Part shown: piece after piece, positions 12,493-28,051 of the stretch
How the letters are laid out: every line of letters begins with the position of its first letter
Position numbering within the stretch: the stretch's first letter is position 1
Source: Sphingomicrobium aestuariivivum
Lineage (GTDB): Bacteria > Pseudomonadota > Alphaproteobacteria > Sphingomonadales > Sphingomonadaceae
Assembly: GCF_024721585.1 (NCBI RefSeq)
Contig: NZ_CP102629.1
Span: 2,180,501 to 2,244,500 of the forward strand
DNA: 64,000 bases
Direction of reading: 5' to 3'
Notes under the pieces: generated by a model
Told to the model about the DNA's origin: nothing
Database searches by the model: none
What the model saw: only the letters and a program-made list of their open reading frames with translations
Position numbers and translations under genes: made by a program

Positions 12493-12639
12493 GCGAAAAA
12501 TCCCCCACTGGATTCAAGAAACGCTTCAGGCTGAAAATGTTAATGCCAAAGCCCTGCCTGTCCAGCAGGCGCGCGCGCCGACAAGGGGCGCGGGCGTCAC
12601 TTCCGGCTCGAGAGTCGCCGAAAAGTCACGCCTCCCGCT

Positions 12640-14115
12640 TCAGGATGCGCCGTCGACAGTAGCAGCAGCCCGTTCCTCGATCTCCGCGAGCATCTCGCGC
12701 GCCTGCGCCGCCCGCTCGGGATGATGGGGATCGTTGACGACGGGGACCATCAGCCGCCGTACTTCGGCCACGCGCCCCTGCCGCCCGAGCGCTTGGGCCG
12801 CGGTCATACGCATGTTGAAATCCTGCGGCGCCTTGGCGATCGCCGCGACCAGCCCGTCGACCGCCATGTCGGTCGCCCGCCCGTGGCGCTCCTTCGACAC
12901 GCGATAGTAGAGCTTCAATGCCTCGGGATCCTCGGGGTCGAGCCGGTTGGCCGCCGCCGCCATCCTGCTCGCCTCGGCATAGAGGCTCTCGTCCTCTTCC
13001 TCGTAGGCGCGCTCGAGCAGCGCCCGCACCCGCAGCAGCATCGGCTCGGCCTTGCCGGGGCGCAATTCCATCGCCCGCGCCGCCGCCTCGTCCGCCGCCT
13101 GCGGGTTCCCGCGCGCCAGCTCGGCCATCGCCAGCACCGTCATGAACAGTCCCGACCCGCCATTCTCGGTTTCCATCGCGCGCAGGCGGGGAAGGAGGTC
13201 CTCCTCGTCCTGGTCGAGCCACAGCGCCAGATAATGCGGGATGGCCGCGCCATCGCTTTCGCTCAACGCGGCGACCGTAACCGACGGCGTCGCCACGCGC
13301 TCGGGGCCGAGTTCGAGATAGCCCAGCCGCGACCTGCGGTAAGACGCCAGTTCCTCATCGAGCCGCGCGAGGTCGCCAAAGGCGGTGCGCGCCGCCTCGC
13401 CCGACGGCAAGCCTTCGGCCATGAGGTCGAGATAGCGCGCGAAATGCTGCCGACGCGTCGGTTCGAAGGCGACATAATGGGTCAGCAGCCAGCCCGTCGC
13501 ATAGAAGCGCTGCCCGTCGCTGCCCCATTGCCTGTTCTGGAGATCGAACAGCCGGTCGACCGGCATGATCCCCTCGCGCTGGAGGACCCGCGCCGCGCGG
13601 ACCGGCACGTCGCCGATGCGCACCGCGCCATCCTTGTCGCTGCGCGCGGTGGAGAAGAATTCGGCCCATCCCTCGACCAGCCAGGCCGGCATCGGGCCAT
13701 CCATGTCCTGGAGCAGAAGGTGATGCGAATATTCGTGCACCAGCACGTTCATCCGCCACTCGGCACGCTGCCCCTCGATGTCGGGCACCACCGCCAGCGG
13801 TCCCATCTCGCGATAGGTGTAGAAACCGCCCGCATTGCCGACCCCCGCAAGGCGGCGCACGACCTGCTCGCTGTCGAGCATGAAGATGGTGACACGGTTG
13901 CCGTCGCCGACCGCCGTATCGGGCTGCGCGCGCACGACGCGGATAGCGCTGTCGATCCGCTCCAGTTCCTCGAGCCGCTCGCGCAGCGTGTCTTCGGACA
14001 AGGTCGAATAGACCACGAAATGCGGACTCTCGGCGCGGCGCCACTGTTCGGCATCGGCCGGCGAGGATAAGGCAATCGCCGAGGCGAGAAGCGGAAGGAT
14101 GGAAAGAAAACGCAA
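12640..14115 (-). CDS. Exported HExxH peptidase-like protein, paralogue of the next gene
   Basis: A 491-residue protein with a signal peptide (ending near ADAEQ, residue 23), HEYSH at 127-131 and a downstream EG motif (E148) completing the gluzincin zinc site. Helical TPR-like repeats fill the C-terminal half. It aligns along its length with the gene at 10915-12492, including GGFxxxRE, WLVEGWAEFF versus WYREGFAELF, and shared repeat spacing. The two are therefore tandem duplicates that have diverged strongly. The start is TTG at 14115 with GGGGG eight bases upstream. The substrate is unknown. Confidence 0.7.
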   Translation of the reverse strand: MRFLSILPLLASAIALSSPADAEQWRRAESPHFVVYSTLSEDTLRERLEELERIDSAIRVVRAQPDTAVGDGNRVTIFMLDSEQVVRRLAGVGNAGGFYTYREMGPLAVVPDIEGQRAEWRMNVLVHEYSHHLLLQDMDGPMPAWLVEGWAEFFSTARSDKDGAVRIGDVPVRAARVLQREGIMPVDRLFDLQNRQWGSDGQRFYATGWLLTHYVAFEPTRRQHFARYLDLMAEGLPSGEAARTAFGDLARLDEELASYRRSRLGYLELGPERVATPSVTVAALSESDGAAIPHYLALWLDQDEEDLLPRLRAMETENGGSGLFMTVLAMAELARGNPQAADEAAARAMELRPGKAEPMLLRVRALLERAYEEEDESLYAEASRMAAAANRLDPEDPEALKLYYRVSKERHGRATDMAVDGLVAAIAKAPQDFNMRMTAAQALGRQGRVAEVRRLMVPVVNDPHHPERAAQAREMLAEIEERAAATVDGAS

Positions 14116-14178
14116 GAGACTGACCCCCGATAGGCTTCGGCGCGCCCACCATTGACCGATCCGCCGCGGCGGACAAGC

Positions 14179-15732
14179 TCAGCCGCGCGCCCATCCCGCA
14201 TCGGCCGGCGTCAGCGTGGCAAGGAAGTCACGTGCGCTCTCCCGATATTCCGCCTTCCGCTCGTCCCCCATCCGATCCCAGGTCGCGAAGATACGCCCGA
14301 TGCGATGGTTGCCCTCGAGCTTGTCGCGGTTGCGGTCCATGAAATCCCAGTAGAGCGCGTTGAAGGGGCAGGCATCCTCGCCGGTTTTCTTCTTCACATC
14401 ATAGCGGCAGTGCCGGCAGTAATCGGACATCTTGTTGATGTAATTGCCGCTCGCCGCATAGGGCTTGGAGGCCATGTCGCCGCCATCGGCGAACAGCGCC
14501 ATGCCGACCACATTGGGCTGCTCGACCCATTCATAGGCGTCGGCATAGACGGTGAGGAACCAGTCCTGCACATGGTCAGGCCGGACCCCCGCGATCAGCG
14601 CGAAATTGCCGAGCACCATCAGCCGCTGGATATGATGCGCATAGGCATGCTCGCGCGTCGTCCGCACCGCCTCGGCCATGCAATGCATGTCGGTCTCGCC
14701 GGTCCAGTAGAAGTCGGGCAGGTGGCGGCGGTTGCCGAAGAAATTCTCCTCGCCATAGTCCGCATCCTCCCACCAGTAGATGCCGCGGATATATTCGCGC
14801 CAGCCGAGGATCTGGCGGATGAAGCCTTCCACCGCCTCGATCGGCGCCTTGCCGTCCCGATAGGCCTGCTCGGCCTTCCGGCAAACCTCGAGCGGATCGA
14901 GCAGCCCGCAGTTGATGCTGGTCGAGAGAAGGGCATGGTTCATGAAATCCTTCCCCGTCAGCATCGCGTCCTGCGTCGCCCCGAAGCAGGGCAGGCGGTT
15001 CGCGATGAAATCGTCCAGCGCTTGCCCCGCCTGCGCCGCCGTCACCGGCCAGCCGAAGCCTTCGAGGCTGCCGAAATGGTCGCCGAAGTGGCCCGCCACG
15101 AGGTCGAGTACTTCCTGCGTGATGTTGTCGGGCTCGAAGACTGGCCGTTCGGGAAAGTCGGTGTCGGGATCGGCGCTGTCGCGGTTCTCGGCATCGAAGT
15201 TCCAGCGCCCGTGGGCCGGCTCCTCTCCGTCCATCAATAAGCCCGTCTTCAGCCTCATCTCGCGATAGAAATGCTCCATCCGCAGTCCGCTGCGCCCCTG
15301 CGCCCAGGCGCAGAATTCGGCGATCGAGCAGATGAAGCGCGTGTCGGGCAGGATGGTCATGGGCAGACCGAACTGGTGCTCCCAGCCGGCGATGGCATCC
15401 ATCACCCGCCGCTCGCCCGCCTCGACGATGCGGATCGCCTCCACCTCGTGCCGTTCCAGCGCCCGCTCGACCTCACCGGTGAAGCTGCCCGAATTGCCGG
15501 CATCATCGAGCTTCACATAATCGACGGTGAAGCCCTTCTCTTCGAGCTCGGCGGCGAAATGCCGCATCGCCGAAAAGAGCAGCGCGATCTTCTGGGGGTG
15601 GTGTTTGACGTAGGTCGCCTCGTCCCACACCTCCATCATCAGCACCACGCAGGCGGCGGGGTCCTCATCGGGCAGGCTGGCGAGGTCGTGGCTGAGCTGG
15701 TCGCCGAGGACGGGAACGAGGGTCGTGGCCAT
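14179..15732 (-). CDS. FeS-type bacterial cryptochrome/(6-4) photolyase family protein
   Basis: A 517-residue flavoprotein of the FeS-BCP branch (PhrB/CryB type), which repairs (6-4) photoproducts or senses blue light. The N-terminal alpha/beta domain opens with LVPVLGDQLSHDL, typical of the deoxyribodipyrimidine photolyase-related family. The C-terminal helical domain has cysteines in SINCGLLDPLEVC and DYCRHCRYD...DACPFNALYWDF, which match the [4Fe-4S] and FAD-binding region. Repair versus signalling cannot be decided from sequence. The start at 15732 is the first ATG. It follows priA in reverse order with a 39-base gap. Confidence 0.85.
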   Translation of the reverse strand: MATTLVPVLGDQLSHDLASLPDEDPAACVVLMMEVWDEATYVKHHPQKIALLFSAMRHFAAELEEKGFTVDYVKLDDAGNSGSFTGEVERALERHEVEAIRIVEAGERRVMDAIAGWEHQFGLPMTILPDTRFICSIAEFCAWAQGRSGLRMEHFYREMRLKTGLLMDGEEPAHGRWNFDAENRDSADPDTDFPERPVFEPDNITQEVLDLVAGHFGDHFGSLEGFGWPVTAAQAGQALDDFIANRLPCFGATQDAMLTGKDFMNHALLSTSINCGLLDPLEVCRKAEQAYRDGKAPIEAVEGFIRQILGWREYIRGIYWWEDADYGEENFFGNRRHLPDFYWTGETDMHCMAEAVRTTREHAYAHHIQRLMVLGNFALIAGVRPDHVQDWFLTVYADAYEWVEQPNVVGMALFADGGDMASKPYAASGNYINKMSDYCRHCRYDVKKKTGEDACPFNALYWDFMDRNRDKLEGNHRIGRIFATWDRMGDERKAEYRESARDFLATLTPADAGWARG

Positions 15733-15771
15733 GGCGCCCCAGCGGCTGGCGGGGGCGGGTCGTTCCCGACC

Positions 15772-17931
15772 CTAGACGAAGGAATAGGGGTCGACGTCGA
15801 CCGCCACGCGCACCTTCTGCGGCCAGTCGACCTTCGCGAGCCAGTCACGGATCGCCGCCTGTACGTCGACGCGTCGCTCGGCATGGACCAGCAGGCGCTG
15901 GCGGTGCCGTCCGCGCAGCATGGCGAGCGGGGCGGGCGCGGGGCCGTAGATCGCCACGCCCTCCATCTCGGGCCGCGCGCGCCCGAGGTTCTGGGCGATC
16001 AGCTTGGCCGCTTCCTCGTCCTCGCTGCTGACGATGATTGCCGCGAGGCGCCCGAAGGGCGGCATGGCAGCGGCGCGGCGCGCCTCGGTCTCGGCGGCGA
16101 TGAAGGCGGGGGCATCGCCCGACACCAACGCTTCCATCACCGGATGGTCGGGCTCGTGGGTCTGGATGAAGACGCGCCCCGGTTTGTCGCCGCGTCCCGC
16201 GCGTCCTGCCACCTGGCTGACCTGCTGGAAGGTACGCTCGGCCGCGCGCAAGTCGCCGCCTTGCAGCCCGAGGTCTGCATCGACCACGCCCACCAGCGTG
16301 AGGTTGGGGAAGTGATAGCCTTTGGTGACAAGCTGGGTGCCGACGACGATGTCGATTTCGCCAGCTTCCATCGCCCGCACGAATTCGGCGGCACGCGCCG
16401 GGCTCCAGATCGTGTCCGATGTGACGACGGCGGTGCGCGCCTCGGGAAAGAGCGCGGCGACCTCGTCGGCAATCCGCTCGACCCCCGGACCGCAGGCGAC
16501 GAGGCAATCTTCCTCGCCGCACTCGGGGCAGGCCTTGGGCGGTGGCATGACATTGCCGCAGTGGTGGCAGGCCAGCCGCGCCATCAGCCGGTGCTCGACC
16601 ATCCAGGCGGTGCAATTGGGGCATTGGAAACGGTGCCCGCAATTGCGGCACAGGGTCAGCGGGGCAAAGCCGCGGCGGTTGAGGAAGAGGAGGCTCTGCT
16701 CGCCCGCCTCGAGATTGGCCTCGAGCTCGCGCACCAGCCGTGGCGCCAGCCACTTGCCGCGCAAGGGCGGGTCCTGCGTCAGGTCGATGGCCGAAAGCTC
16801 GGGCAGGCGCGCTTCGGCATGGCGCTCGGCCAGCCGCACCTCGTCATAGCGCCCGATCTCGACCATGTGCCGCGTTTCGATCGCGGGAGTGGCGCTGGCA
16901 AGGATGATCGGGAATTGCTCGAACTGCCCGCGCATCACCGCGACGTCGCGGGCATGATATTGCACGCCTTCTTCCTGCTTGAAGCTGGTCTCGTGCGCCT
17001 CGTCGACGATGATGAGCTTCAAGTCGCGATAGGGAAGGAAGAGGCTGGAACGCGCGCCGACCACGACCTTCGCCGTGCCTTCCGCAATCCCGCGCCACGC
17101 TCGCCGCCGCTCCGACCCGCGAAGGTCGGAGTGCCACGCCACCGGCATCGTGCCGAAGCGCCGCTCGAAGCGCTGGAGGAAGGGTTCGGTGAGCGCGATT
17201 TCGGGGAGCAGCACGAGCACCTGGCCGCCCTGCCTGAGCGCCTCGGCAAGCGCCTCGAAATAGACTTCGGTCTTGCCCGAGCCGGTGATGCCGTCGAGCA
17301 GGATCGGCGCGAAGCCGCCGCCGATGGCACCACGCAGTCGGTCGGCGGCGGCGGCCTGTTCGGGTCGAAGCTCGACCGGCGAGAAGTCGGGATCGGGCTG
17401 CGGGAAAGGCGCATCGGCATCGACCTCGACCGCCTCGAGCGCGCCGGCCTTGACCAGACCGCGCACCACCGCGTCGGACACGCCCGCCTTGGCGGCGAGT
17501 TCGCGCACGCTGCCCTGCCGCCCCTCGAGTTCGCGCAGCGCTTTCTCGCGGGTCGCGGTGAGGCGTGGCGGGACGAGGCCGGTGAGGCGATATTCGACCA
17601 GCTGTCGCGGGCTGGCGAAGGCCGCGCTCGGGAGCATCATCCGCAGCACGCTGGCGAGCGGCGAGCAGTAGTAGGTCGCGGTCCACTCGGCGAGGCGGCG
17701 GAGCTCGGCCGACAGCGGCGGCACGTCGATCGCGCCGATGAGGGGGCGCAGGCGATTGTCGCCGACTTCCTCGGTCGGCAGCCGTTCGGGCTCCCACACC
17801 ACGCCGGTGAGCTGGCGGGGCCCAAGCGGCACGGTGACGAGCGTGCCGGGCGGTGCCTCGACGCCCTCGGGCAGCTTGTAATCGAGCGGCCCCAGTGCGG
17901 CGTTCAGCGTGACGACGCGAACGCGCTCCAC
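15772..17931 (-). CDS. priA: Primosomal protein N' (replication restart helicase PriA)
   Basis: A 719-residue superfamily 2 helicase that reloads the replisome at stalled forks. It carries Walker A (GITGSGKTEVYFE), a DEAH box (VDEAHETSF) and the zinc-binding insert with paired cysteines (CRNCGHRFQCPNC, CHHCG, CPECGEEDC). The N-terminal DNA-binding domain begins RVVTLNAALGPLDYKLP. The start is GTG at 17931, four bases after the purC stop, with AGGA inside the end of purC. The frame is open to 18000 but the extension overlaps purC and is not family-like. Confidence 0.93.
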   Translation of the reverse strand: MERVRVVTLNAALGPLDYKLPEGVEAPPGTLVTVPLGPRQLTGVVWEPERLPTEEVGDNRLRPLIGAIDVPPLSAELRRLAEWTATYYCSPLASVLRMMLPSAAFASPRQLVEYRLTGLVPPRLTATREKALRELEGRQGSVRELAAKAGVSDAVVRGLVKAGALEAVEVDADAPFPQPDPDFSPVELRPEQAAAADRLRGAIGGGFAPILLDGITGSGKTEVYFEALAEALRQGGQVLVLLPEIALTEPFLQRFERRFGTMPVAWHSDLRGSERRRAWRGIAEGTAKVVVGARSSLFLPYRDLKLIIVDEAHETSFKQEEGVQYHARDVAVMRGQFEQFPIILASATPAIETRHMVEIGRYDEVRLAERHAEARLPELSAIDLTQDPPLRGKWLAPRLVRELEANLEAGEQSLLFLNRRGFAPLTLCRNCGHRFQCPNCTAWMVEHRLMARLACHHCGNVMPPPKACPECGEEDCLVACGPGVERIADEVAALFPEARTAVVTSDTIWSPARAAEFVRAMEAGEIDIVVGTQLVTKGYHFPNLTLVGVVDADLGLQGGDLRAAERTFQQVSQVAGRAGRGDKPGRVFIQTHEPDHPVMEALVSGDAPAFIAAETEARRAAAMPPFGRLAAIIVSSEDEEAAKLIAQNLGRARPEMEGVAIYGPAPAPLAMLRGRHRQRLLVHAERRVDVQAAIRDWLAKVDWPQKVRVAVDVDPYSFV

Positions 17932-17935
17932 CGGC

Positions 17936-18727
17936 CTAGTCCTTGCGCTCGCGCTTCTTCTTGGCGCTGTCGAAGTCGAGCACCGCGCTTTCCTCGCCAT
18001 CCTCGGGCTGGAGGAGGCCGAGGCGGCGGGCGACTTCCTGATAGGCTTCGGCGATTTCGCCGAGGTCCTGGCGGAAGCGGTCCTTGTCGAGCTTGCGGTT
18101 CGAGGCGATGTCCCACAGGCGGCAGCTGTCGGGCGAGATTTCGTCGGCGAGGATGATGCGGCTGTAGTCGTTTTCCCAGATGCGGCCGAATTCCAGCTTG
18201 AAATCGACGAGGCGGATGCCGATGCCGGCGAACAGGCCGCACATGTAATCGTTCACCCGGATCGCCATGTCGGCGATGTCGTTCATCTCTTCCTGGCTGG
18301 CCCAGCCGAAGCAGGCGATATGCTCCTCGGTCACCATGGGATCGCCGAGCTTGTCGTCCTTGTAGTAATATTCGATCACGGTGCGCGGCAGCTGGGTGCC
18401 TTCCTCGATGCCGAGACGCTTGGTCATGGAGCCGGCCGCGACGTTGCGGACGACGACCTCGATGGGGACGATCTCGACCTGGCGGACGAGCTGTTCGCGC
18501 ATGTTCAACCGGCGCATGAAATGGGTCGGCACGCCGATGGTGTGGAGCGAGGTGAAGATCTTCTCCGAGATGCGGTTGTTGAGCACGCCCTTGCCCGCGA
18601 TCTGCCCGGTTTTCTCGGCGTTGAAGGCGGTGGCGTCATCCTTGAAATATTGGATGATGGTGCCGGGTTCGGGACCCTCGTAGAGGATCTTCGCCTTGCC
18701 TTCGTAGATCTGCCTGCGCCGTGCCAT
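17936..18727 (-). CDS. purC: SAICAR synthetase
   Basis: A 263-residue phosphoribosylaminoimidazole-succinocarboxamide synthase, which joins aspartate to CAIR in purine synthesis. It starts [18 protein letters not shown], the normal family N-terminus, with GGGGA six bases before the ATG at 18727. The ATP and substrate-binding motifs ([31 protein letters not shown]) are all visible. An upstream in-frame start at 18742 is less likely. It is co-transcribed with priA. Confidence 0.96.
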
Positions 18728-18756
18728 GCTTCCCCGCCTCAACTGGTTGAAATCGG

Positions 18757-18785
18757 CCTATAGGAGGTTGGGCGGGACGGGGCAA
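18757..18785 (-). promoter_or_regulatory. Candidate purC promoter
   Basis: On the minus strand TTGCCC and TATAGG are separated by exactly 17 bases, ending 30 bases before the purC ATG. The fit to a housekeeping sigma-70 promoter is moderate. Confidence 0.4.
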
Positions 18786-19110
18786 TTGGCTGTGTAGGGA
18801 AGCGCCTCCTGTTGGAGAAAATCGGGGGTGTGTCCACTTCGTCCACTTGTGGAACTTTTCGGGGCCAAGCCGCTGATTTTGCACGGCCCGTGCCGCTGTC
18901 GGCGGCGGTGCAGGGCGAGGAAAAAAGCGCGGCGAACCGCCGTGAACCCGCGCGAGCGGCGGGGCGATGCGGGGAGGGTGTCGGTCATTCGAGAACATAG
19001 ACCGAAACGGGCGCTGTAGGACAGCGAACGCAACCCGACGCCAGGAGGTTTTACAAGCTTGACAATTCAAGACGTAATACCAAAACTTTTGAAAAACTTC
19101 GGGGCTCAAT
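18786..19110. other. 325-base intergenic region between purC promoter and RT gene
   Basis: No convincing gene is present. The left two-thirds is GC-rich like the host, and the last ~70 bases turn AT-rich. Visible elements: a direct repeat GTCCACTTC/GTCCACTTG (18832-18849) that also forms the palindrome TCCACTTGTGGA (18842-18853); GAAC-N7-GAAA at 18993-19007, one base off the alphaproteobacterial LexA box; AGGAGG at 19043-19048; and TTGACA at 19059-19064, a perfect -35 hexamer without a clear -10. A short TTG-initiated frame (19059-19163) follows AGGAGG and overlaps the RT gene out of frame. The RT promoter must lie here, and a structured RNA cannot be excluded. Confidence 0.5.
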
Positions 19111-22100
19111 GTGAAAATAGCAAGTTGGGAAAGTATTTCCCTCGACGACATTCGAAAGGCTTACCGTAAAGCAAAGGCTGATTGCTTTTTTGAGCGATCT
19201 CTGCCCCTCGCGGAACGCTTTGCATCTTATGAGATGGATCTAGAAGAGAATTTGAGTTCTCTGCAGTGCGAGCTTGTGAAAGGCGCTGTGAGTGAAGTAT
19301 TAGAGAGAGATCCGCTCGAATTTGCGGTCTGGGGAAAGGTGTTAAAGCCATCGAAAAGCACTTCAGTTAGCTCTGATGACGCTTGTTTTGACACTGAAAA
19401 AATTAACAGTCTCCAATTCGATCAAGCAAATGGTGGCACTGCAAAATTTAGATCAGTCGGCCTTTTCGCGGTCGAAACCCATATAATTTCTGCTCTATGG
19501 CTTCTCACGGTCGGTGATCGCTTGGACAAGCTATTAAGCGAAAATGCAAAAGGCTCGAGAATAAACCGACTTCCGAAAAAGGGCAGTGATAGCGCTGGGG
19601 ACATTCATGCAGAATCTCTCGGGACGTTTGAGCCGTATTTTTTGCCATATTCTGAATGGCGAGATCGCGGCCTAGCGGCCATGCGAGACGAAATCGAGAA
19701 GGGGGGTCGCGTTACCGCCATCACGACGGATTTGACCGACTTCTATCAAACAGTTGACCCCTCGTACATTACTTCGGGCGAATTTAGAGAGAGGTATGGC
19801 CTAACATATTCACGAGTTGAGACTGACTTAAATCGCGCCTTGATATCGCTGATGAGGCGTTGGAATACTAAGATTTCAGAAGAATTGAATTTTGAAAAGG
19901 TCGACCCGATTGGTGTGCCGGTAGGTCTTATGGCATCAAAAGTTCTCGCAAACGTTGCCCTTATAGAGCTAGATGAAATATTCGAGACCTCTATTCGACC
20001 ATACTACTACGGCAGATATGTAGACGACATTTTCATTGTTTTCCGATCGGATGGCATCGACAGTCTAGAAGGCTTTTGGGCACTACTGGAGCAAAACTCG
20101 GCGTCGATAAAGAAAGGAGCGGAAAAGGTAAAAATCTCGATCTCGTATCATCGCCCAGAGTTTAAAATTGTTGATAGTAAAACAAAGCTGTTCAAGTTGA
20201 AAGGCAGGGCGGGTCGGGACACTATTGACAAAATTGATGACGAAATTCGATCAATTTCAAGTGAACGTCGATTGCTGCCAAGTGTAGACGACCTAATAGA
20301 GGGGAGGTCGTCTGAGGCCCTCGTGCTTGGGGATGCGCCAAATTCGGAACCCACCAGTTTGATGCGCGCAGGGGGGCTGACGGTTAAGCGCTTGGCGTGG
20401 GCATTGAAGCTCAGAAACATCGAATATCTTAATCGTTTGCTCCCGCCCGATCAGTGGGAGCGGGAGCGAACAAACTTCTTTGAGTTCGCTCGAGTACATC
20501 TCTTAAATCCGAATGCGATTCTGGAGCATGTTGATTCCATTTATCGGATGTTCGGAGTGGCGGTGGCTTGTCGTGATTGGAGAGAGGCAGAGAAGCTCCT
20601 CAAGACAGTCCTCGAGTCCTTCAAAGCAATATCCCACAACAAGTTCATCAGTACTAAAGTTGATGGTTTCTCGTGCGACCATGAAGCTTGGCTCGCGCTG
20701 GAGGGGACTTTCCTTAAGGCTTTGGCGGACGCGGCCCTGAAAAATATCGGGTTTGGAAACCTCTGTCGGACGAGAAGCGATCAAAGGAGCATGCAAAACG
20801 TATTAATGACTGCTGGTCTGCCCTTGGGTGAAGAGGAATTGAGGCGGCGCTTCTTGTCAATCTATACTTCTGACTGGTCCACGATCCCTTTGAAAAGTCG
20901 CTATCCTCTAACAGCGATGGCGGCACATGTAGGGAGGCAAATGGGAAGACTTAGCTTCGATGACGTATGGGACTACGATCGTCGGAGTTTTGAGCTAGGC
21001 CTGTTTTGCATTGAGGCGTCGATGTCCCCTTATTTTAGGGAATTTATCCGCGAGCCGTTGGAGGCCGAAGAGGCGCTGATATCCAAATGTGTGAATTCTC
21101 TAAGGTATCCAACGCGTCCTTTTTCGCCGGGGGAGATATATGGTTTGTTGCCGACCACTTGCGGGTGGACTGAGAGCCGTGACGGTAGGCCGGTGTGGGC
21201 AAAACTGGTCCGCCTCTTAAGAGGCTCATGGGTGAGTGATGAAAACTTATTGTCAGTGAGCGAAGCACCAATGTCGGGCGGTAGTGGTCCGACAAGGCAA
21301 ATGATTAATCGTGAAGAGAAGGTCGTACGTCTAGGTATCTCCAGCTATAAGACGGCTGGTGCTGACTGGAGGCTCATGGCTGCAGGCCAACCGCTCGTAA
21401 CTGCCAAAAGGCATAAACAAATTTCTACTATGATTAATATGGCGATTAAAGCTGACCCAAAGCCGACACACCTAATACTGCCCGAGCTCGCCTTGCCGCA
21501 TGAGTGGCTATCTGATGTCGCGGCTGTTCTCGCTCGGAGCAATATCAGTCTTATTAGCGGTGTTGAATATTACCATTACCCTCACCGTAAGGTCGGCAGT
21601 TCTGCCTTTATGAACCTCAGAAGTGACGATTTAGGCTGGCCAATTTGGCTATCATTGTTCCAGCACAAATCGATCCCGTCACCTCGTGAAGGAGACGAGC
21701 TAGAGAAGGTCTATAATTTAGCCTGGGAGTGCCCGTCCTTGCGCAAGCCAATCTATGTGCACGGCGAATTTGCATTCGGTACATTGATTTGTTCAGAGCT
21801 CCAGAATTTGAGCTATCGTAAGAACGCTCAGGGGAACGTTGATTGCCTTATAGTTCTCTCTTGGAACCAAGACCTTGCAACTTTTTCATCGTTAACTGAA
21901 GGCGCGGCTTTGGATGTCCATTCATATATCGCCGTAGTCAATAATAGAGCGTACGGAGATAGTCGTGTCCGCGCTCCTGCGATGAAAAACTTTGAAAGGG
22001 ATATCTGCCGCGTAAAAGGTGGAGAGAATGACCATATGCTAGTTGTTGAACTTAATCCTTATGACTTGCGGCGGTTCCAGTCTCGATACACGCGGCTTAC

Positions 22101-22173
22101 GGACCCTATGGATAAATTTAAAGCGCGGCCGGAAGATTTCGAGATAGCCAATTACCGAAGGGTAATTCCCTAG
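19111..22173 (+). CDS. Reverse transcriptase-nitrilase fusion, class 1 defence-associated RT (DRT1/UG1-like)
   Basis: A 1020-residue single polypeptide. Residues ~1-400 hold a reverse transcriptase domain: motif A TTDLTDFYQ (D207), motif B GVPVG...ASKVLAN (268-281) and the catalytic YVDD at 303-306. A helical linker (~400-730) follows. Residues ~735-1015 form a carbon-nitrogen hydrolase (nitrilase) domain with a complete triad: E792 (LPELALP), K853 (QHKSIPSPREG) and C894 (LICSEL). RT plus C-terminal nitrilase defines class 1 DRTs, which protect bacteria from phage. The start is GTG 19111, since a stop lies in frame at 19090; GGGG is seven bases upstream. The gene is AT-rich and uses ATA, AGA and TTA codons rare in its neighbours, so it was probably acquired horizontally. 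No partner gene is adjacent. Confidence 0.9.
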   Translation: MKIASWESISLDDIRKAYRKAKADCFFERSLPLAERFASYEMDLEENLSSLQCELVKGAVSEVLERDPLEFAVWGKVLKPSKSTSVSSDDACFDTEKINSLQFDQANGGTAKFRSVGLFAVETHIISALWLLTVGDRLDKLLSENAKGSRINRLPKKGSDSAGDIHAESLGTFEPYFLPYSEWRDRGLAAMRDEIEKGGRVTAITTDLTDFYQTVDPSYITSGEFRERYGLTYSRVETDLNRALISLMRRWNTKISEELNFEKVDPIGVPVGLMASKVLANVALIELDEIFETSIRPYYYGRYVDDIFIVFRSDGIDSLEGFWALLEQNSASIKKGAEKVKISISYHRPEFKIVDSKTKLFKLKGRAGRDTIDKIDDEIRSISSERRLLPSVDDLIEGRSSEALVLGDAPNSEPTSLMRAGGLTVKRLAWALKLRNIEYLNRLLPPDQWERERTNFFEFARVHLLNPNAILEHVDSIYRMFGVAVACRDWREAEKLLKTVLESFKAISHNKFISTKVDGFSCDHEAWLALEGTFLKALADAALKNIGFGNLCRTRSDQRSMQNVLMTAGLPLGEEELRRRFLSIYTSDWSTIPLKSRYPLTAMAAHVGRQMGRLSFDDVWDYDRRSFELGLFCIEASMSPYFREFIREPLEAEEALISKCVNSLRYPTRPFSPGEIYGLLPTTCGWTESRDGRPVWAKLVRLLRGSWVSDENLLSVSEAPMSGGSGPTRQMINREEKVVRLGISSYKTAGADWRLMAAGQPLVTAKRHKQISTMINMAIKADPKPTHLILPELALPHEWLSDVAAVLARSNISLISGVEYYHYPHRKVGSSAFMNLRSDDLGWPIWLSLFQHKSIPSPREGDELEKVYNLAWECPSLRKPIYVHGEFAFGTLICSELQNLSYRKNAQGNVDCLIVLSWNQDLATFSSLTEGAALDVHSYIAVVNNRAYGDSRVRAPAMKNFERDICRVKGGENDHMLVVELNPYDLRRFQSRYTRLTDPMDKFKARPEDFEIANYRRVIP

Positions 22174-22209
22174 AGGTTTATGTTCGGAGACATGTCGAGC
22201 TGACAGAAT

Positions 22210-22232
22210 CTTTTCTAAAAGAGACTAATGGG
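22210..22232. promoter_or_regulatory. Palindrome plus CTAATGGG motif upstream of parC
   Basis: CTTTTCTAAAAG (22210-22221) and CTAATGGG (22225-22232) lie between the RT stop and the parC start. The pair recurs upstream of cpaF at 2180-2200. The palindrome could also act as a weak transcription stop for the RT gene. Confidence 0.3.
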
Positions 22233-22269
22233 ATGACACCCATAGGGCACCCGACCTAAGCTCGCTTGC

Positions 22270-24531
22270 ATGACCACCGAATCCGTCCCCGACCAGATCA
22301 TCGACGAACCCTTTTCGAGCGCGCTGAGCGAACGCTATCTCGTCTACGCGCTCTCCACCATCACGGCGCGCTCGCTGCCCGATGTGCGCGACGGCTTGAA
22401 GCCCGTGCATCGCCGCCTCCTGTGGGCGATGCGCAAGCTGAAGCTCGATCCCGCCGGCGCCTACAAGAAGTCGGCGCGCGTGGTGGGCGATGTCATCGGT
22501 AAATATCACCCGCATGGCGATGCGTCGGTCTATGACGCGATGGTGCGATTGGCGCAGGACTTTTCGCTGCGCTACCCGCTGGTCGAGGGGCAGGGGAATT
22601 TCGGCAACATCGACGGGGATAATGCCGCTGCCTATCGCTATACCGAGGCCAAGCTGACCAAGACCGCGATGCGGCTCATGGCTGGGATCGACGAGGGCAC
22701 GGTGCCGTTCCGCTCGACCTATAATGGCGAGGAGGACGAGCCCGAGGTGTTCCCGGGGCTGTTCCCCAACCTGCTCGCCAATGGCGCGGCGGGGATCGCG
22801 GTGGGGATGGCGACCTCGATCCCGCCGCACAATGTGGGCGAGCTGTGCGATGCGGCGGTGCATCTGGTCGGCACGCGCGACGCGCGCGACGAGACCTTGA
22901 TGAAATATGTGAAGGGGCCGGACTTCCCGACGGGGGGCGTGCTGGTCGATGACGAGGCGGTGATCCTCAAGGCCTATGTGACGGGCAGGGGGTCTTTCCG
23001 CATTCGCGCGAAGATCGAGCGCGAGGATTTGAAGGGCGGGGCCTGGCAGCTGGTCGTGACCGAGATCCCCTATGGCGTGGCGAAGGGCAAGCTGATCGAG
23101 CAGATCGCGGGGCTGATCGGGGACAAGAAGCTGCCGATCCTCGGCGATGTGCGCGACGAGAGTGCGGAGGATATCCGCATCGTGCTCGAGCCGCGGTCGC
23201 GGACGGTGGATGCGCAGCTCTTGGAGGAGAGCCTGTACAAGCTCTCTGATCTCGAGAGCCGCTTCTCGCTCAACCTCAACGTGCTCGAGCATGGGCGGAC
23301 GCCGGGGGTGATGAGCCTTCGCGAGGCGCTGCTGTCGTGGATCGACTTCCAATATGACGTGATGCGCAATCGGGCGCAGTGGCGGATCGGGAAGATCGAT
23401 GACCGGCTCGAGCTGGTGCGCGGCTATCTCATTGCCTTCCTCAACCTTGATCGGGTGATCGAGATCATCCGCACCGAGGACGAGCCCAAGGCGGTGATGA
23501 TGGCCGAGTTCGGGCTGACCGACCGGCAGGCCGAGGCGATCCTCAACATGCGGCTGCGCAGCTTGAGGAAGCTCGAGGAGATGGAGCTCAAGGGCGAGGA
23601 AGAGAGCCTCTTGGCCGAGAAGGGCGAGCTGGAGGCGCTGCTCGGGGACGAGGAGCTGCAGAAGGCCAAGCTCAAGGAGGAGCTGCGCGCGCTCAAGAAG
23701 GATTACAAGGACGATCCGCGGCGCACCGCGGTGACGCCGGCGGCGGTGACGGCGGATGTCGACTGGACGCAGATGATCGACAAGGAGCCGGTGAGCGTGA
23801 TCCTGTCGAGCCGCGGCTGGATCAGGGCGATGAAGGGGCATGTCGACCTTGCCACCGTGCCCGAGATGAAGTTCCGCGAGGGCGACGAGGCGGCGTTCCA
23901 TTTCCATGCGCAGACGACCGACCGCATCCTCGTGGTGGCGGAGAACGGGCGGATCTTCACGGTGGGGGCGGACAAGCTGCCCGGTGGCAGGGGCTTTGGC
24001 GAGCCGCTGCGGCTGATGATCGATCTCGAGGGCGAGGTGGAGATCGTGACCGCGCTGCCCCTGGATCCCAAGGCGAAATATCTCGTCGCAGCGTCGGACG
24101 GGCGCGGGTTCGTGGCACTCGGCGAGAACCTCTCTGCCGAGACGCGCAAGGGCAAGCAGCTGGTGAACCTCAGGAAGGGCGCGAAGGTGAAGCTGGTGAA
24201 GCCCATTCCCGAAGGCGCCGATGCGATCGCGGTCGTGGGCGAGAATAGGAAGGTGCTGGTCTTCAGCCTCGAGGAGATGCCCGAACTGGCGCGCGGCGCG
24301 GGCGTGCAGCTCCAGCGCTATCGCGACGGGGGTTTGAGCGATGCCATCGGCTTCCGGCTGGAGGACGGGATCAGCTGGGCGATGGGCGGGGGCACGCGCA
24401 ACCGCACCGAACCGGACATGACGCCGTGGAAGGTCGTGCGCGGGGCGGCAGGGCGCATGGCGCCGCAGGGTTTCCCGCAATCCAATGCCTTCGTGCCGCC
24501 CGTCAAAAAGAATGACGAGGCGCAGGATTGA
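22270..24531 (+). CDS. parC: DNA topoisomerase IV subunit A
   Basis: A 753-residue type IIA topoisomerase subunit that cleaves and rejoins DNA to unlink daughter chromosomes. The catalytic tyrosine is Y124 in AAYRYTEAKL. The winged-helix region contains KYHPHGDASVYDAM (quinolone pocket), where Ala85 replaces the Ser80 of E. coli ParC and Asp89 matches Glu84. The C-terminal ~250 residues form the beta-pinwheel with repeated blades. Length and lack of a GyrA box favour ParC over GyrA. The start at 22270 is the first ATG. parE is not in the window. Confidence 0.93.
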   Translation: MTTESVPDQIIDEPFSSALSERYLVYALSTITARSLPDVRDGLKPVHRRLLWAMRKLKLDPAGAYKKSARVVGDVIGKYHPHGDASVYDAMVRLAQDFSLRYPLVEGQGNFGNIDGDNAAAYRYTEAKLTKTAMRLMAGIDEGTVPFRSTYNGEEDEPEVFPGLFPNLLANGAAGIAVGMATSIPPHNVGELCDAAVHLVGTRDARDETLMKYVKGPDFPTGGVLVDDEAVILKAYVTGRGSFRIRAKIEREDLKGGAWQLVVTEIPYGVAKGKLIEQIAGLIGDKKLPILGDVRDESAEDIRIVLEPRSRTVDAQLLEESLYKLSDLESRFSLNLNVLEHGRTPGVMSLREALLSWIDFQYDVMRNRAQWRIGKIDDRLELVRGYLIAFLNLDRVIEIIRTEDEPKAVMMAEFGLTDRQAEAILNMRLRSLRKLEEMELKGEEESLLAEKGELEALLGDEELQKAKLKEELRALKKDYKDDPRRTAVTPAAVTADVDWTQMIDKEPVSVILSSRGWIRAMKGHVDLATVPEMKFREGDEAAFHFHAQTTDRILVVAENGRIFTVGADKLPGGRGFGEPLRLMIDLEGEVEIVTALPLDPKAKYLVAASDGRGFVALGENLSAETRKGKQLVNLRKGAKVKLVKPIPEGADAIAVVGENRKVLVFSLEEMPELARGAGVQLQRYRDGGLSDAIGFRLEDGISWAMGGGTRNRTEPDMTPWKVVRGAAGRMAPQGFPQSNAFVPPVKKNDEAQD

Positions 24532-24581
24532 TCCGAAACGGGACGGAATGGGAAGGTTCACAAACGGCTTGAATACTAGCC

Positions 24582-24600
24582 GTTAACCCTTCGCGTTTAA
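24582..24600. promoter_or_regulatory. GTTAAC-N6-CGTTTAA motif before the GGDEF-EAL gene
   Basis: GTTAAC (24582-24587), six bases, CGTTTAA (24594-24600), ending 11 bases before the GGDEF-EAL ATG. The identical pattern occurs at 62825-62843 upstream of a PilZ gene. The TTAA halves recall CtrA boxes (TTAA-N7-TTAA) but the spacing is 10. Confidence 0.3.
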
Positions 24601-24611
24601 GGCGGGGGCCC

Positions 24612-26402
24612 ATGCAGGCGACCGTGCCCCTCCAACCCGCCCCCGTGGCGAGCGCCCCGCGCAACGGGCGTGGCATGTCCGTCGAGGACTGCCAACTGCT
24701 CGCCGCGCTGCCGATCGCGGCAGGGGTGGTGCACCTCGATGAAGAGGGGGAGCTGGGGCTCGACGCCTGGAACCCGAAATTCATCGAGACGATCACCGGC
24801 GGCCAGCTTCACCTCGATGCGCGCGCGATCCTGAAGGCCGCTGCGGGCGGGCCGATCGGCGCCTTCCTCAAGGCCTATCTCGCCGATCCGGCGAACGCCC
24901 CTGACGAGATGGAGCGGCAGGACGGATCGGGCGTGCACCGCCGCTATTTCCGCCTGAAGGCCGCGCCGCTGGGCGGGGCGGGGGCGATGCGGCGCTGCCT
25001 CCTCAGCCTCGTCGAGGAAACACAGGAGAAGCGCACGCAGGAGCATCTCAGGAACCAGATGCTGCAATGCTCGCTCACGGGCCTGCCCAACCGCCTCGCC
25101 TTCACCGACGCGATCGAGGCGGTCGCGGGCGACAAGGCGCGGGCCGACGGCTATGCGATCCTGCTGGTCGACCTCCTCCGCTTTTCGCGCATCAACCAGT
25201 CGATGGGCTCGGTGGTGGGCGACGAACTGCTCATCAGCTTTGCCAGCCGCCTCGTCGGCGGGCTTCGCGACGGCGACATGCTGGCACGCGTCGGCGGCAA
25301 CGAATTCGGCATCCTCTTTTCGGTCAAGGGCGGGGCGGGCGATGCGGTCCGCGCGGCGGAGCGCATCGCGCGGCTGATCGAGGAGCCCTTCACCCTGTCC
25401 GACCTCGACATCCGCGTCGACGGGGCGATCGGCATCGCGCTGCTCAGTCATGGCGAGGACGGCGAGGAGCTGTTCCGCAACGCCCAGTTCGCGGTCAAGC
25501 AGGCCAAGCTGGCGGGCAAGCCCACTATCTACGAGCCCGAACAGGCGGTGGCGGCGCGGCGGCGCTTCTCGATCGAGACCGAACTCAGGCGCGCCTTGGA
25601 ACGCGACGAGCTCGACCTTGCCTACCAGCCGCTCATCGAACTGAAGACGGGGCGCGTCACCGGCTTCGAGGCGCTGGCGCGCTGGAACCATGCCGAGCGC
25701 GGCGAGATCGGGCCGTCCGAATTCATTCCCGTCGCCGAGGAATCAGGCCTCATCCTCGAGCTCGGTCGCTGGGCGATGGACAAGGCGGCGCGCACGCTGT
25801 CGGGCTGGGACAATGCCGAGGGGCAGGTCCTGCCGATCAACCTGTCGGTCAACCTGTCGGCGATCCAGGTGGCGCGCGACAATGTGTCGGAAATGGTCGG
25901 CACGACGCTCAGGACCCACAAGATCGGCGGCGAGCGGCTGACCATCGAACTGACCGAAAGCGCGATCGTCCAGGATCCGGCGCGGGCGACCAAGGTGTTC
26001 GAGGCCATCAAGGGCCTAGATGCCAATCTCGCGATGGACGATTTCGGCACCGGCTATTCGAGCCTTGCCTATCTCCAGCGCCTGCCGATCGACCTTCTCA
26101 AGATCGACCAGCGGTTCATCAAGGGCATGCTGTCGGACAGGGACAGTATCGCCATTGTCCGCGCGATCCTCGGCCTTGCCGACGCACTCGGCATGAAGAC
26201 TACCGCCGAGGGGATCGAGAGCGTCGAGCTGGCGACCACGCTGGCGGGGCTCGGCTGTGCCCACGGGCAGGGCTTCCATTTTTCGAAGGCGGTCGATGCC
26301 AAGCGGGCGCTGGCCTATTGGCGGGCGCGCGAGGAAAAGGCACTGCGCGAAGGCACCATCGCGGCTAGCCCGATCGGGAGGGTCCGGCATGGCCGAGCGT
26401 GA
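24612..26402 (+). CDS. GGDEF-EAL cyclic-di-GMP signalling protein
   Basis: A 596-residue cytoplasmic protein. Residues ~25-135 form a PAS-like sensor region, ~150-310 a GGDEF domain and ~320-585 an EAL phosphodiesterase domain. The diguanylate cyclase signature reads GGNEF (228-232): Asn230 replaces the metal-binding Asp/Glu, so cyclase activity is probably lost. The EAL domain keeps FEALARW (353-355), the metal-site DDFGTGYSS and the DLLKID segment, so it should degrade c-di-GMP. The downstream PilZ gene overlaps its end by 14 bases, which points to a shared transcript. Confidence 0.88.
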   Translation: MQATVPLQPAPVASAPRNGRGMSVEDCQLLAALPIAAGVVHLDEEGELGLDAWNPKFIETITGGQLHLDARAILKAAAGGPIGAFLKAYLADPANAPDEMERQDGSGVHRRYFRLKAAPLGGAGAMRRCLLSLVEETQEKRTQEHLRNQMLQCSLTGLPNRLAFTDAIEAVAGDKARADGYAILLVDLLRFSRINQSMGSVVGDELLISFASRLVGGLRDGDMLARVGGNEFGILFSVKGGAGDAVRAAERIARLIEEPFTLSDLDIRVDGAIGIALLSHGEDGEELFRNAQFAVKQAKLAGKPTIYEPEQAVAARRRFSIETELRRALERDELDLAYQPLIELKTGRVTGFEALARWNHAERGEIGPSEFIPVAEESGLILELGRWAMDKAARTLSGWDNAEGQVLPINLSVNLSAIQVARDNVSEMVGTTLRTHKIGGERLTIELTESAIVQDPARATKVFEAIKGLDANLAMDDFGTGYSSLAYLQRLPIDLLKIDQRFIKGMLSDRDSIAIVRAILGLADALGMKTTAEGIESVELATTLAGLGCAHGQGFHFSKAVDAKRALAYWRAREEKALREGTIAASPIGRVRHGRA

Positions 26403-26676
26403 TCCCGGCATGACCGGCAACGGGAGCGGCGCGCGCAGTGTGCGCATCGACCTTGCCCAGCCCGGCATGGTGACCGACAGCGATGGCGGCCGCGTGGCGG
26501 TCATCGTGCGCGACCTGTCGAAGGACGGGTGTCGCCTGTCGACCGACGGCTCGCTGATCGAGGGCGAGCAGGTCATGCTCGCGGTCGGCAAGGGACAGCC
26601 CGTTCCGGCGCTCGTTGCCTGGGCGCTCGGCGACGATGCGGGCTTGCATTTCACGGCGCCCGCCGCCATCGGGTAA
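26389..26676 (+). CDS. Small PilZ-domain protein
   Basis: A 95-residue single-domain protein with the PilZ core VIVRDLSKDGCRLSTDG (DxSxxG element) and the closing WALGDDAGLHF strand. PilZ domains bind c-di-GMP, but the upstream RxxxR motif is imperfect here (RSVR), so binding is uncertain. The start at 26389 has GGGAGGG six bases upstream and lies inside the 3' end of the GGDEF-EAL gene, implying translational coupling with it. Confidence 0.75.
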   Translation: MAERDPGMTGNGSGARSVRIDLAQPGMVTDSDGGRVAVIVRDLSKDGCRLSTDGSLIEGEQVMLAVGKGQPVPALVAWALGDDAGLHFTAPAAIG

Positions 26677-26787
26677 CGCTGTTCGTTACGGTAGCGTTAG
26701 AAAAACTAATCCAGTATAGTATTTTGTATTGCGTCATGCGCGGGTTTACGGCAGTTTCCCCTCATGAAGCTCGGGGGAAGAAGTTTG

Positions 26788-27060
26788 ATGAGGCGTAAAG
26801 TCGGCGAAGTGAAACGCGCCAAGCGGATCGAGGTCAATCACGAAGGCGTGCTGGTCGCCAGCGACGGGGTCGAGAGCCCCGTGACCGTCATCGACCTGTC
26901 GGCGGAAGGCTGCCGCCTCAAGACCGACGGCACCCCCATGATCGGCGAGGACGTGCGGCTGCGCGTCGGCCGCTCGGGCGACTATCCGGCGCAGGTGCGC
27001 TGGGCGCTGGGCGACGAGGCGGGGCTGCGCTTCACGGGGCCCGCCGAACCGCCGGCCTGA
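26788..27060 (+). CDS. Small PilZ-domain protein, second copy
   Basis: A 90-residue PilZ protein related to the one just upstream: DLSAEGCRLKTDG and WALGDEAGLRF are shared nearly word for word. A basic KRAKR run stands where RxxxR is expected. The start at 26788 has GGGGGAAG nine bases upstream; ATG 26764 is the alternative. The 110-base gap before it is AT-rich (TTAGAAAAACTAAT, then GTATAGTATTTT) and probably contains its own promoter. Confidence 0.72.
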   Translation: MRRKVGEVKRAKRIEVNHEGVLVASDGVESPVTVIDLSAEGCRLKTDGTPMIGEDVRLRVGRSGDYPAQVRWALGDEAGLRFTGPAEPPA

Positions 27061-27137
27061 GGGCATAGCCTCCCTATTTTTCCGAAAAATTCGCGACGGG
27101 ATTGAACCGGACGCGCGCTGCGGTGCACCTTCTTTCC

Positions 27138-27689
27138 ATGAGTAAGGGGCATCGTCTCGAGGGCCGTGCGCTCGATGGCTGGCTGGTCGCCGGCGCGCGG
27201 GCGGGCGAGAAGCGGTTGGCGGCGGCGCTGGTGCGGCGCTGGCAGCCGCGGCTCGTCGGCCATGCGCGGCGCTTGCTGGGTGGTCCCGGCACGGAGGATG
27301 TCGTGCAGGCGAGCTGGGCGGCGATCTGGAAGGCGCTGCCGACCCTGCGCGAAGAGCGGGCCTTCGGGACCTTCGCCTATCGGATCGTGTCGCGCCAATG
27401 CGCGCGCACGATCGGCAGGCGCCAGCAGCGGCGCGCGCTGGATGCGGCAGTGGCGGCCGAGCCGGCCCAAGTCGAAGCGCCGCCCGAGGGCAATGAGCGC
27501 GAGCGGCTGGCGGCGGCGATGGCGCGGTTGTCGCCCGCGCACCAGGCCGCGCTCAGGCTGTTTTATTTCGAGGACATGCGCGTGGCCGAGATCGCCGTCG
27601 CGCTCGACGTGCCGCCGGGCACGGTGAAGACCCGGCTGATGCATGGACGCGCCGCCTTGCGCGCGGCGCTGGAAGGAGAAGGGAAATGA
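27138..27689 (+). CDS. ECF-type RNA polymerase sigma factor
   Basis: About 183 residues with sigma region 2 (~35-95; DVVQASWAAIWKALPTL...FGTFAYRIVSRQ) and region 4 (~130-180; LSPAHQAALRLFYFEDMRVAEIA, then the HTH VPPGTVKTRLMHGRAAL). Regions 1 and 3 are missing, as in extracytoplasmic function sigma factors. The ATG at 27138 is preferred to a TTG at 27102. Its stop overlaps the start of the next gene (ATGA), a membrane protein that may be its regulator. Confidence 0.85.
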   Translation: MSKGHRLEGRALDGWLVAGARAGEKRLAAALVRRWQPRLVGHARRLLGGPGTEDVVQASWAAIWKALPTLREERAFGTFAYRIVSRQCARTIGRRQQRRALDAAVAAEPAQVEAPPEGNERERLAAAMARLSPAHQAALRLFYFEDMRVAEIAVALDVPPGTVKTRLMHGRAALRAALEGEGK

Positions 27690-28051
27690 GTGATCTCGAC
27701 AAGAGGATCGCGGAACTGCTGCGCGAGGAAGAGGATGCGCTGGTGGCCGACTGGGAGGCCAATGAGCCGGGCTATTTCAGCCAGGCGATGGGGCTGTTCA
27801 AGGGGCGCACCGGCTGGCCGAGCATGGTGCTGTTCGTGACGCAGGCGGTGATGTTCATCGCCGGCGTCTGGATGGCGCTGAAATTCTATGCCGCCGACAA
27901 TGTGCTCGAGGCGCTCCACTGGGGGCTGCCCGCCGCCGTGCTGGTGCTCGGCGCGCTGGTGTCGAAGCTGGCGCTGTGGCCGCAGATGCACATCAATCGC
28001 GTGCTGCGCGAGTTGAAGCTGATCGAATACCAGCTGGCGCGGAAGGACTAG
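27686..28051 (+). CDS. Small two-helix membrane protein paired with ECF sigma (DUF6768-like)
   Basis: A 121-residue protein with a charged cytoplasmic N-terminus (MSDLDKRIAELLREEEDAL), a membrane helix at ~46-66 and another at ~76-96, then a charged tail. It overlaps the sigma-factor stop by four bases, a gene order seen for DUF6768 proteins. By position it could be an anti-sigma or accessory factor. No zinc-binding anti-sigma motif (HxxxCxxC) is present, so that role is only inferred. Its stop overlaps the convergent CCA gene. Confidence 0.65.
   Translation: MSDLDKRIAELLREEEDALVADWEANEPGYFSQAMGLFKGRTGWPSMVLFVTQAVMFIAGVWMALKFYAADNVLEALHWGLPAAVLVLGALVSKLALWPQMHINRVLRELKLIEYQLARKD

Follow-up and report, generated by a model that had tools for sequence, protein, structure and literature searches.

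A UG5-nitrilase reverse transcriptase gene upstream of parC in Sphingomicrobium aestuariivivum, with a candidate priming serine and a putative C-terminal lid

The gene and its domains

In a 64,000-nucleotide stretch of the Sphingomicrobium aestuariivivum genome (contig NZ_CP102629.1, positions 2,180,501 to 2,244,500; hereafter the window), a solitary gene between purC and parC encodes a polypeptide of 1020 amino acids (aa), in which a reverse transcriptase (RT) domain precedes a predicted nitrilase domain. This gene is a UG5-nitrilase, a class 3 defence-associated reverse transcriptase (DRT) belonging to a family already represented in PADLOC, and it has been inserted, as an AT-rich segment of foreign composition, where other defence modules are found in congeners. 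We consider it probable that it serves as a one-gene abortive-infection system, in which the nitrilase would be locked by DNA primed on Ser384 of the protein itself. The gene and its parts are as follows.

19111..22173, + strand: UG5-nitrilase reverse transcriptase, 1020 aa, GTG start; PADLOC match over residues 2-1019
19696..20205, + strand: RT catalytic core, residues about 196-365 (motif A with D207, motif B GVPVG 268-272, YVDD 303-306)
20551..21330, + strand: poorly conserved region between RT and nitrilase, residues about 481-740 (approximate extent); the RTasNitrilase profile starts at 481
21331..22140, + strand: predicted nitrilase domain, residues about 741-1010 (E792, K853, E860, C894); profile aligns to 9yfd

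The frame has no internal stop codon over 3060 bases. An initial annotation of this DNA, made from its letters alone, had described one polypeptide with an RT and a C-terminal nitrilase, and this agrees with the single open reading frame found here, in which GVPVG at residues 268-272 reads, as it had proposed, as motif B of the RT domain, and the codons of D207 (19729), Y303 (20017), D306 (20026), E792 (21484), K853 (21667) and C894 (21790) are in place.

Relatives were sought in several collections. Among 199 genomes of the same family, 192 gave no match and two full-length relatives were found besides the own copy, and 398 genomes of the phylum gave four further strong matches, one of which (L011) is a UG5-nitrilase gene with internal stops and was excluded from alignments. 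Five plasmid records covered at least 80%, and one each from Escherichia coli (L008, CP088862.1) and Sinorhizobium meliloti (L009, NC_018682.1) was used; both are UG5-nitrilases annotated as hypothetical protein. A search of genome contigs with the single window protein gave no match, and that with an alignment of eight members (A1) gave at least 455 relatives, of which 80 were kept. In viral contigs, L120, which PADLOC identifies as a UG5-nitrilase, was the single relative of nearly full length, besides four short RT matches, and phage records gave no match at an E-value of 1e-5. From 81 loci (L040-L120), 71 frames of at least 985 aa were combined with the window protein and seven others into a set of 79 sequences, one of which (L059) is matched from residue 180 onward only.

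The same residue is found in 79/79 sequences at D207, G272, Y300, R302, Y303, D305, D306, E792, K853, E860 and C894, and V304 is kept in 77/79. The D207, YVDD and E792-K853-C894 residues reported as complete in the initial annotation are all included here; conservation of the catalytic residues in 79/79 is therefore not a matter of chance. Five residues beyond D207, position 212 holds Y in 77 sequences and F in the other two, and we take Y212 to be at the place of the aromatic residue of RTs that selects deoxynucleoside triphosphates.

The reading of the C-terminal part as a nitrilase domain with a Glu-Lys-Cys triad is supported by PADLOC and by alignment to the solved DRT1 structure 9yfd, and weakly by NAD synthetase. 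A profile built from 12 family nitrilase segments matched 9yfd with an E-value of 2e-13, whereby C894 falls on C1116 of DRT1, and weakly matched glutamine-dependent NAD synthetase (E 0.015).

Placement among reverse transcriptases

The PADLOC model RT_UG5-nitrilase (PDLC03780) matched the window protein with 773 bits over profile positions 14-899 of 907, and it was matched by 8/8 members of alignment A1, the window protein included. Scores with other PADLOC models were 165 bits (a second UG5-nitrilase model), 137 (RTasNitrilase), 110 (UG5_small) and 79.5 (Drt1a). In an RT tree of 34 rows, the window protein and 13 UG5-nitrilases form a 14-row clade with support of 100/100; the window protein was likewise grouped with UG5 rows, at 90/94, in an earlier RT tree in which several long rows joined oddly. 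Thirteen of 16 chosen UG5 rows were kept in both trees. For the first tree, a motif filter had dropped all six retrons, L071, L072 and L120 (UG5), L129, L203, L032 and L034, and long branches with odd placement were formed by L037, L005, L214 and L026. The second tree was made without these four and with 4/6 retrons back (L204 and L208 still out); L071, L072, L120, L129, L203, L032 and L034 are absent from it too.

The initial annotation had called the gene a DRT type 1 (UG1) system of class 1, and neither label can be kept. A topology that joins the window protein to four UG1 rows fails the approximately unbiased test (p-AU 0.0037), and the Drt1a score of 79.5 bits stands against 773 bits for PDLC03780, with five UG1 comparison proteins scoring 1257-1380 bits on Drt1a. 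A DRT1-type RT-nitrilase of 1228 aa (L129:291-3974; Drt1a 1257 bits) is present in another genome of the same family (G053). As for the class, PMC13275509 assigns RT-nitrilases to class 3 and not to class 1; RTs of both the UG1 and the UG5 type that carry a nitrilase at the C terminus had been published by 2021 (PMC8934634). Comparison with retrons and group II introns, which the initial annotation had proposed as a check, gave neither: a retron is rejected by p-AU 0.0008 for grouping with four retron rows and by the lack of an NF038233 match in the own genome, and a group II intron RT by p-AU 4e-55 with four group II RTs and a TIGR04416 score of 27 bits against a cut-off of 300. The UG5 placement also speaks against a diversity-generating retroelement, in a tree without rows of such RTs. 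Repeats in the short stretch 18700-22400 are two-copy only, of 14-17 nucleotides, with one inverted pair of 16 nucleotides. An Rfam search of 18700-22400 at E 1, limited to described RNA families, gave no match, and near the gene promoter-like (3 against 2.9 expected) and terminator-like (4 against 3.7) elements are at chance level.

With other UG5-nitrilase RTs of PDLC03780, the protein has in common the architecture, the full-length profile match, the catalytic residues, and the serine S384 and lid motif described below, and it differs from them in an identity of 37.6% at best to any relative found and in ten departures at conserved columns. DRT1/UG1 (9yfd) likewise has an RT with a C-terminal nitrilase, C1116 in place of C894, a serine aligned at low local confidence and a lid, but it belongs to another RT clade and has 1229 aa against 1020 here, and the region from RT to nitrilase hardly aligns. 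The UG5-small RT (PDLC03781) resembles the RT part of the window protein (residues 11-390, 110 bits), to which the match is confined. RTasNitrilase (PDLC03804) matches residues 481-1008 with 137 bits; its profile has 397 positions, whereas in the window this part is fused behind a UG5 RT, and UG1 proteins are matched by this profile as well, in their C-terminal parts. The DRT5S and DRT5L proteins of PMC13275509 presumably correspond to UG5 small and large, in the case of DRT5L probably, as suggested by the class to which they belong, the suffixes S and L, and the names used in PADLOC. No genuine UG5-small gene was retrieved from 299 genomes, where the three strongest matches are UG5-nitrilases.

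A candidate priming serine, a putative lid and the divergence of the window copy

According to work published in 2026, DRT1 synthesises DNA without a template from a protein primer and controls its own nitrilase; it forms DNA-dependent tetramers and filaments, both active sites are needed, and immunity against phage T4 needs the phage helicase Dda (PMC13275509). The statement of the initial annotation that the cooperation of RT and nitrilase is poorly understood has thus to be amended, in that it is now partly known for DRT1. DNA is primed on S402 of DRT1, within a stretch unresolved in the structure, and the S402A mutation abolishes immunity (PMC13275509). The following residue is proposed for the same role in the window protein.

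20260..20262, + strand: Ser384, predicted DNA-priming residue, invariant in 79/79 and aligned to DRT1 S402

S384 is the only serine that is invariant in the 79 sequences, where the invariant hydroxyl residues are Y300, Y303, S384 and T668. In a phmmer alignment, S402 of 9yfd falls on the serine within an LSG motif of L127, a UG1 protein, and this column holds serine in 5/5 UG1 rows. When the 79-row UG5 profile was compared with the UG1 profile by hhalign (Prob 99.7, E 7e-26), this serine column fell on S384 in an alignment free of gaps from K357 on, and S384 was again placed on the UG1 serine in 4/6 settings with RT-only segments. S384 is thus likely to be the residue that primes DNA.

A second element shared with DRT1 is located at the C terminus.

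22120..22140, + strand: putative C-terminal lid motif K1004-A-R-P1007-E-D-F1010, corresponding to K1219-T-Q-P1222-A1223-G-F1225 of DRT1

The C terminus of DRT1 covers the nitrilase pocket of the neighbouring chain, and K1219 and A1223 are essential for activity (PMC13275509). In the hhalign comparison, the motif of the window protein pairs with its counterpart in L125, a UG1 protein; K1004 and P1007 are found in 79/79, and at position 1010 there are 71 sequences with F and eight with Y. The position matching A1223 is E1008 in the window protein, and D (35), E (31), I (9), V (2) or T (2) across the set. As judged from this alignment, the essential lid of DRT1 is conserved here as K1004-P1007-F1010.

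On this basis, the RT domain would make short template-free DNA covalently primed on its own S384. DNA-bearing chains would then assemble, by which the nitrilase would become competent while being kept shut by the C-terminal lid. Phage infection would release this lock, as occurs with a phage helicase in DRT1, and the freed nitrilase would act on a vital compound, so that the cell stops before phage maturation. DRT5S and DRT5L have been reported to perform template-free synthesis of covalently bound DNA (PMC13275509). Abi (abortive infection) polymerases are also reported to make untemplated, protein-primed DNA, and it might be supposed that toxicity or sensing resides in the DNA product rather than in the nitrilase. 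This seems quite improbable, given that the nitrilase triad is kept in 79/79 and that the C1116A mutant of DRT1 still makes DNA and yet has lost immunity (PMC13275509).

Several points weigh against an S384-primed, DNA-locked nitrilase in the window protein. Pfam gave no nitrilase match in this protein or in the 12 family nitrilase segments. The posterior marks of the phmmer alignment are low around the LSG serine; two of the four favourable hhalign settings returned an identical result line, two of the six, including the default, end before S384, and a by-eye alignment of the preceding helix leaves an offset of two residues between S384 and S402. S402 is stated in PMC13275509 not to be conserved in other class 3 DRTs, to which an invariant UG5 serine aligned to the priming position of DRT1 runs counter. 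The mechanisms of DRT1 and DRT5 are called not established in a review of May 2026 (PMC13213688), of which the part on DRT5 bears on the present case. In addition, the window protein differs from the family at 10 of the 113 columns with a conservation of at least 95% (family residue first: L151I, H213Q, D415T, R418M, D421G, Y476S, F666Y, A857S, P1005A and G1009D), of which H213Q and the following segment, as well as P1005A and G1009D within the lid, count in particular.

20353..20373, + strand: segment 415-421, with T415, M418 and G421 where the family has D, R and D

These changes may reflect functional divergence or decay, and the catalytic residues and S384 are intact. Decay would mean that the family is rightly named and the window copy is losing, or has lost, its function. 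Residues 415-421 contain three of the ten departures and the lid another two; by raw number, the window protein ranks third from the top among the 79 (median 1), or second with L059 set aside, whose count stems from its unmatched N-terminal part; and in a tree of 30 full-length rows the end branch of the window protein is 2.1 against a median of 0.65, within a clade of 13 supported by 100/100. On the other hand, the frame is free of stops, the catalytic residues, S384 and the lid K, P and F are kept, and a relative from Bacteroidota (L092) departs at more columns than the window protein. Decay is thus regarded as unlikely, and activity of the gene as likely. The earlier argument that two complete active sites suggest an active system is fair as regards the residues invariant in 79/79 and weak as regards the ten changed columns.

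The site upstream of parC, neighbourhoods and meaning

The gene is set among core genes, as the initial annotation had noted.

17936-18742, - strand: purC (TIGR00081, 236 bits)
19048..22234, no strand: inserted AT-rich segment, probable extent, from the edges of homology to the congener G583
19059..19169, + strand: frame of 36 aa with a TTG start behind AGGAGG, overlapping the start of the RT gene
22270-24531, + strand: parC (TIGR01062, 786 bits)

The priA gene lies beyond purC on the same flank. The GC content of the RT-nitrilase gene is 0.483 (0.499 at third codon positions) against 0.669 (12000-18900) and 0.673 (22270-29000) in the flanks, in accordance with the AT-rich character given to it before. 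Homology to G583 ends at 19024 (blastn) or 19047 (local alignment) and is back at 22235, where homology to the congener G587 also returns. Window positions 18916-19047 correspond to about 130 bases of a longer minus-strand frame of G583 (L172:12018-12854), ending at the AT-rich insert. The 36-aa frame is possibly involved in translational coupling or is a remnant. In G587, the interval from purC to parC contains a DUF2939 gene (L173:779-1276, - strand), whose protein has no match in the own genome of the window (2.35 Mb), in which the single match to the RT-nitrilase gene is the gene itself. The solitary gene of a defence-type family noted earlier is found again. No match to the membrane partner Drt1b was found in the own genome by a search whose controls also gave no match.

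parC was found in 40 other congeners, and DNA upstream of it was taken from 26, in all of which mapping of purC, DUF2939 and parC was carried out; frames were listed in 14 of these stretches and scanned with PADLOC in eight. parC is taken as the constant side of the site, because purC is present in just 9/26 fetched stretches. At least 6/27 congeners, the window included, carry a PADLOC-positive module directly upstream of parC, within about 0.8 kb, and all modules are different: the UG5-nitrilase (window), OLD-like (G583), NsnB/AAA_15 (G077), HEC-01A/B (G599), RmrA/RmrT (G585), and a type II methyltransferase with a weak restriction endonuclease match (G617). The scanned frames of L182, L189 and L192 were PADLOC-negative. 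The modules occupy the following positions.

window 19048-22234
L172:13511-15451
L175:5432-7287
L177:5206-7001
L190:4250-5960
L181:465-2757

A solitary gene between purC and parC might also encode a cellular enzyme without a role in defence. This is scarcely credible in view of its foreign composition, of the 192/199 family genomes that have no match while two others have it in full length, and of the different defence modules that congeners carry at this position.

Neighbourhoods of the family were counted in 69 loci of at least 9 kb, with cluster identities from PADLOC on nine representatives and other members found by tblastn. BREX-type genes (PglX, PglZ or BrxL) are near 15/69, of which 13 have PglZ or BrxL; type I restriction-modification (RM) genes (HsdM or HsdR) are near 10/69, and together they amount to 25/69. 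The representative of PglX scored 1704 bits as a type IIG enzyme, slightly above the 1575 bits for PglX. The UG5-nitrilases near BREX-type genes are as follows.

L053 (by BrxL alone), L063, L064, L066 (by PglX alone), L070, L079, L083, L085, L098, L102, L104, L107, L110, L111, L114 (by PglX alone)

These 25 loci could mean that the gene does not stand alone but is an accessory of BREX or of restriction systems, which appears very unlikely: 44/69 loci have no PglX, PglZ, BrxL, HsdM or HsdR, and the window gene itself lies between purC and parC. No RT-nitrilase is described in the passages of PMC9716671 that deal with RTs, nitrilases or BREX. A Drt1b/RTasTM-like membrane gene adjoins the UG5-nitrilase in 3/69, namely L077 (by PADLOC), L075 and L120 (by tblastn, on the opposite strand in L120); the membrane partner Drt1b accompanies about 18% of drt1 genes (PMC13275509).

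A one-gene abortive-infection system with an S384-primed, DNA-locked nitrilase is preferred because of the full-length match to PDLC03780, the RT clade supported by 100/100, the conserved triad and YVDD, the correspondence of C894 to C1116, the invariance of S384 and its alignment to S402, the correspondence of K1004 to the essential K1219, the covalent DNA of template-free DRT5S and DRT5L, the defence neighbourhoods of relatives and the site upstream of parC. New here are the differing defence modules upstream of parC and the BREX and type I RM neighbours of relatives, together with the prediction, drawn from alignments, of a priming serine and a lid shared by UG1 and UG5 RT-nitrilases. It is about evenly balanced whether both groups have a single built-in switch from a common RT-nitrilase ancestor, made of a priming serine just after the RT palm (S402/S384) and a C-terminal lysine lid (K1219/K1004), so that the DNA-locked nitrilase of DRT1 would be general and the window copy, changed around both elements, would be a variant with altered locking. 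The site upstream of parC is a place to seek further defence genes in the genus, and if S384 primes DNA, a self-primed, DNA-locked nitrilase could be a general design beyond DRT1.

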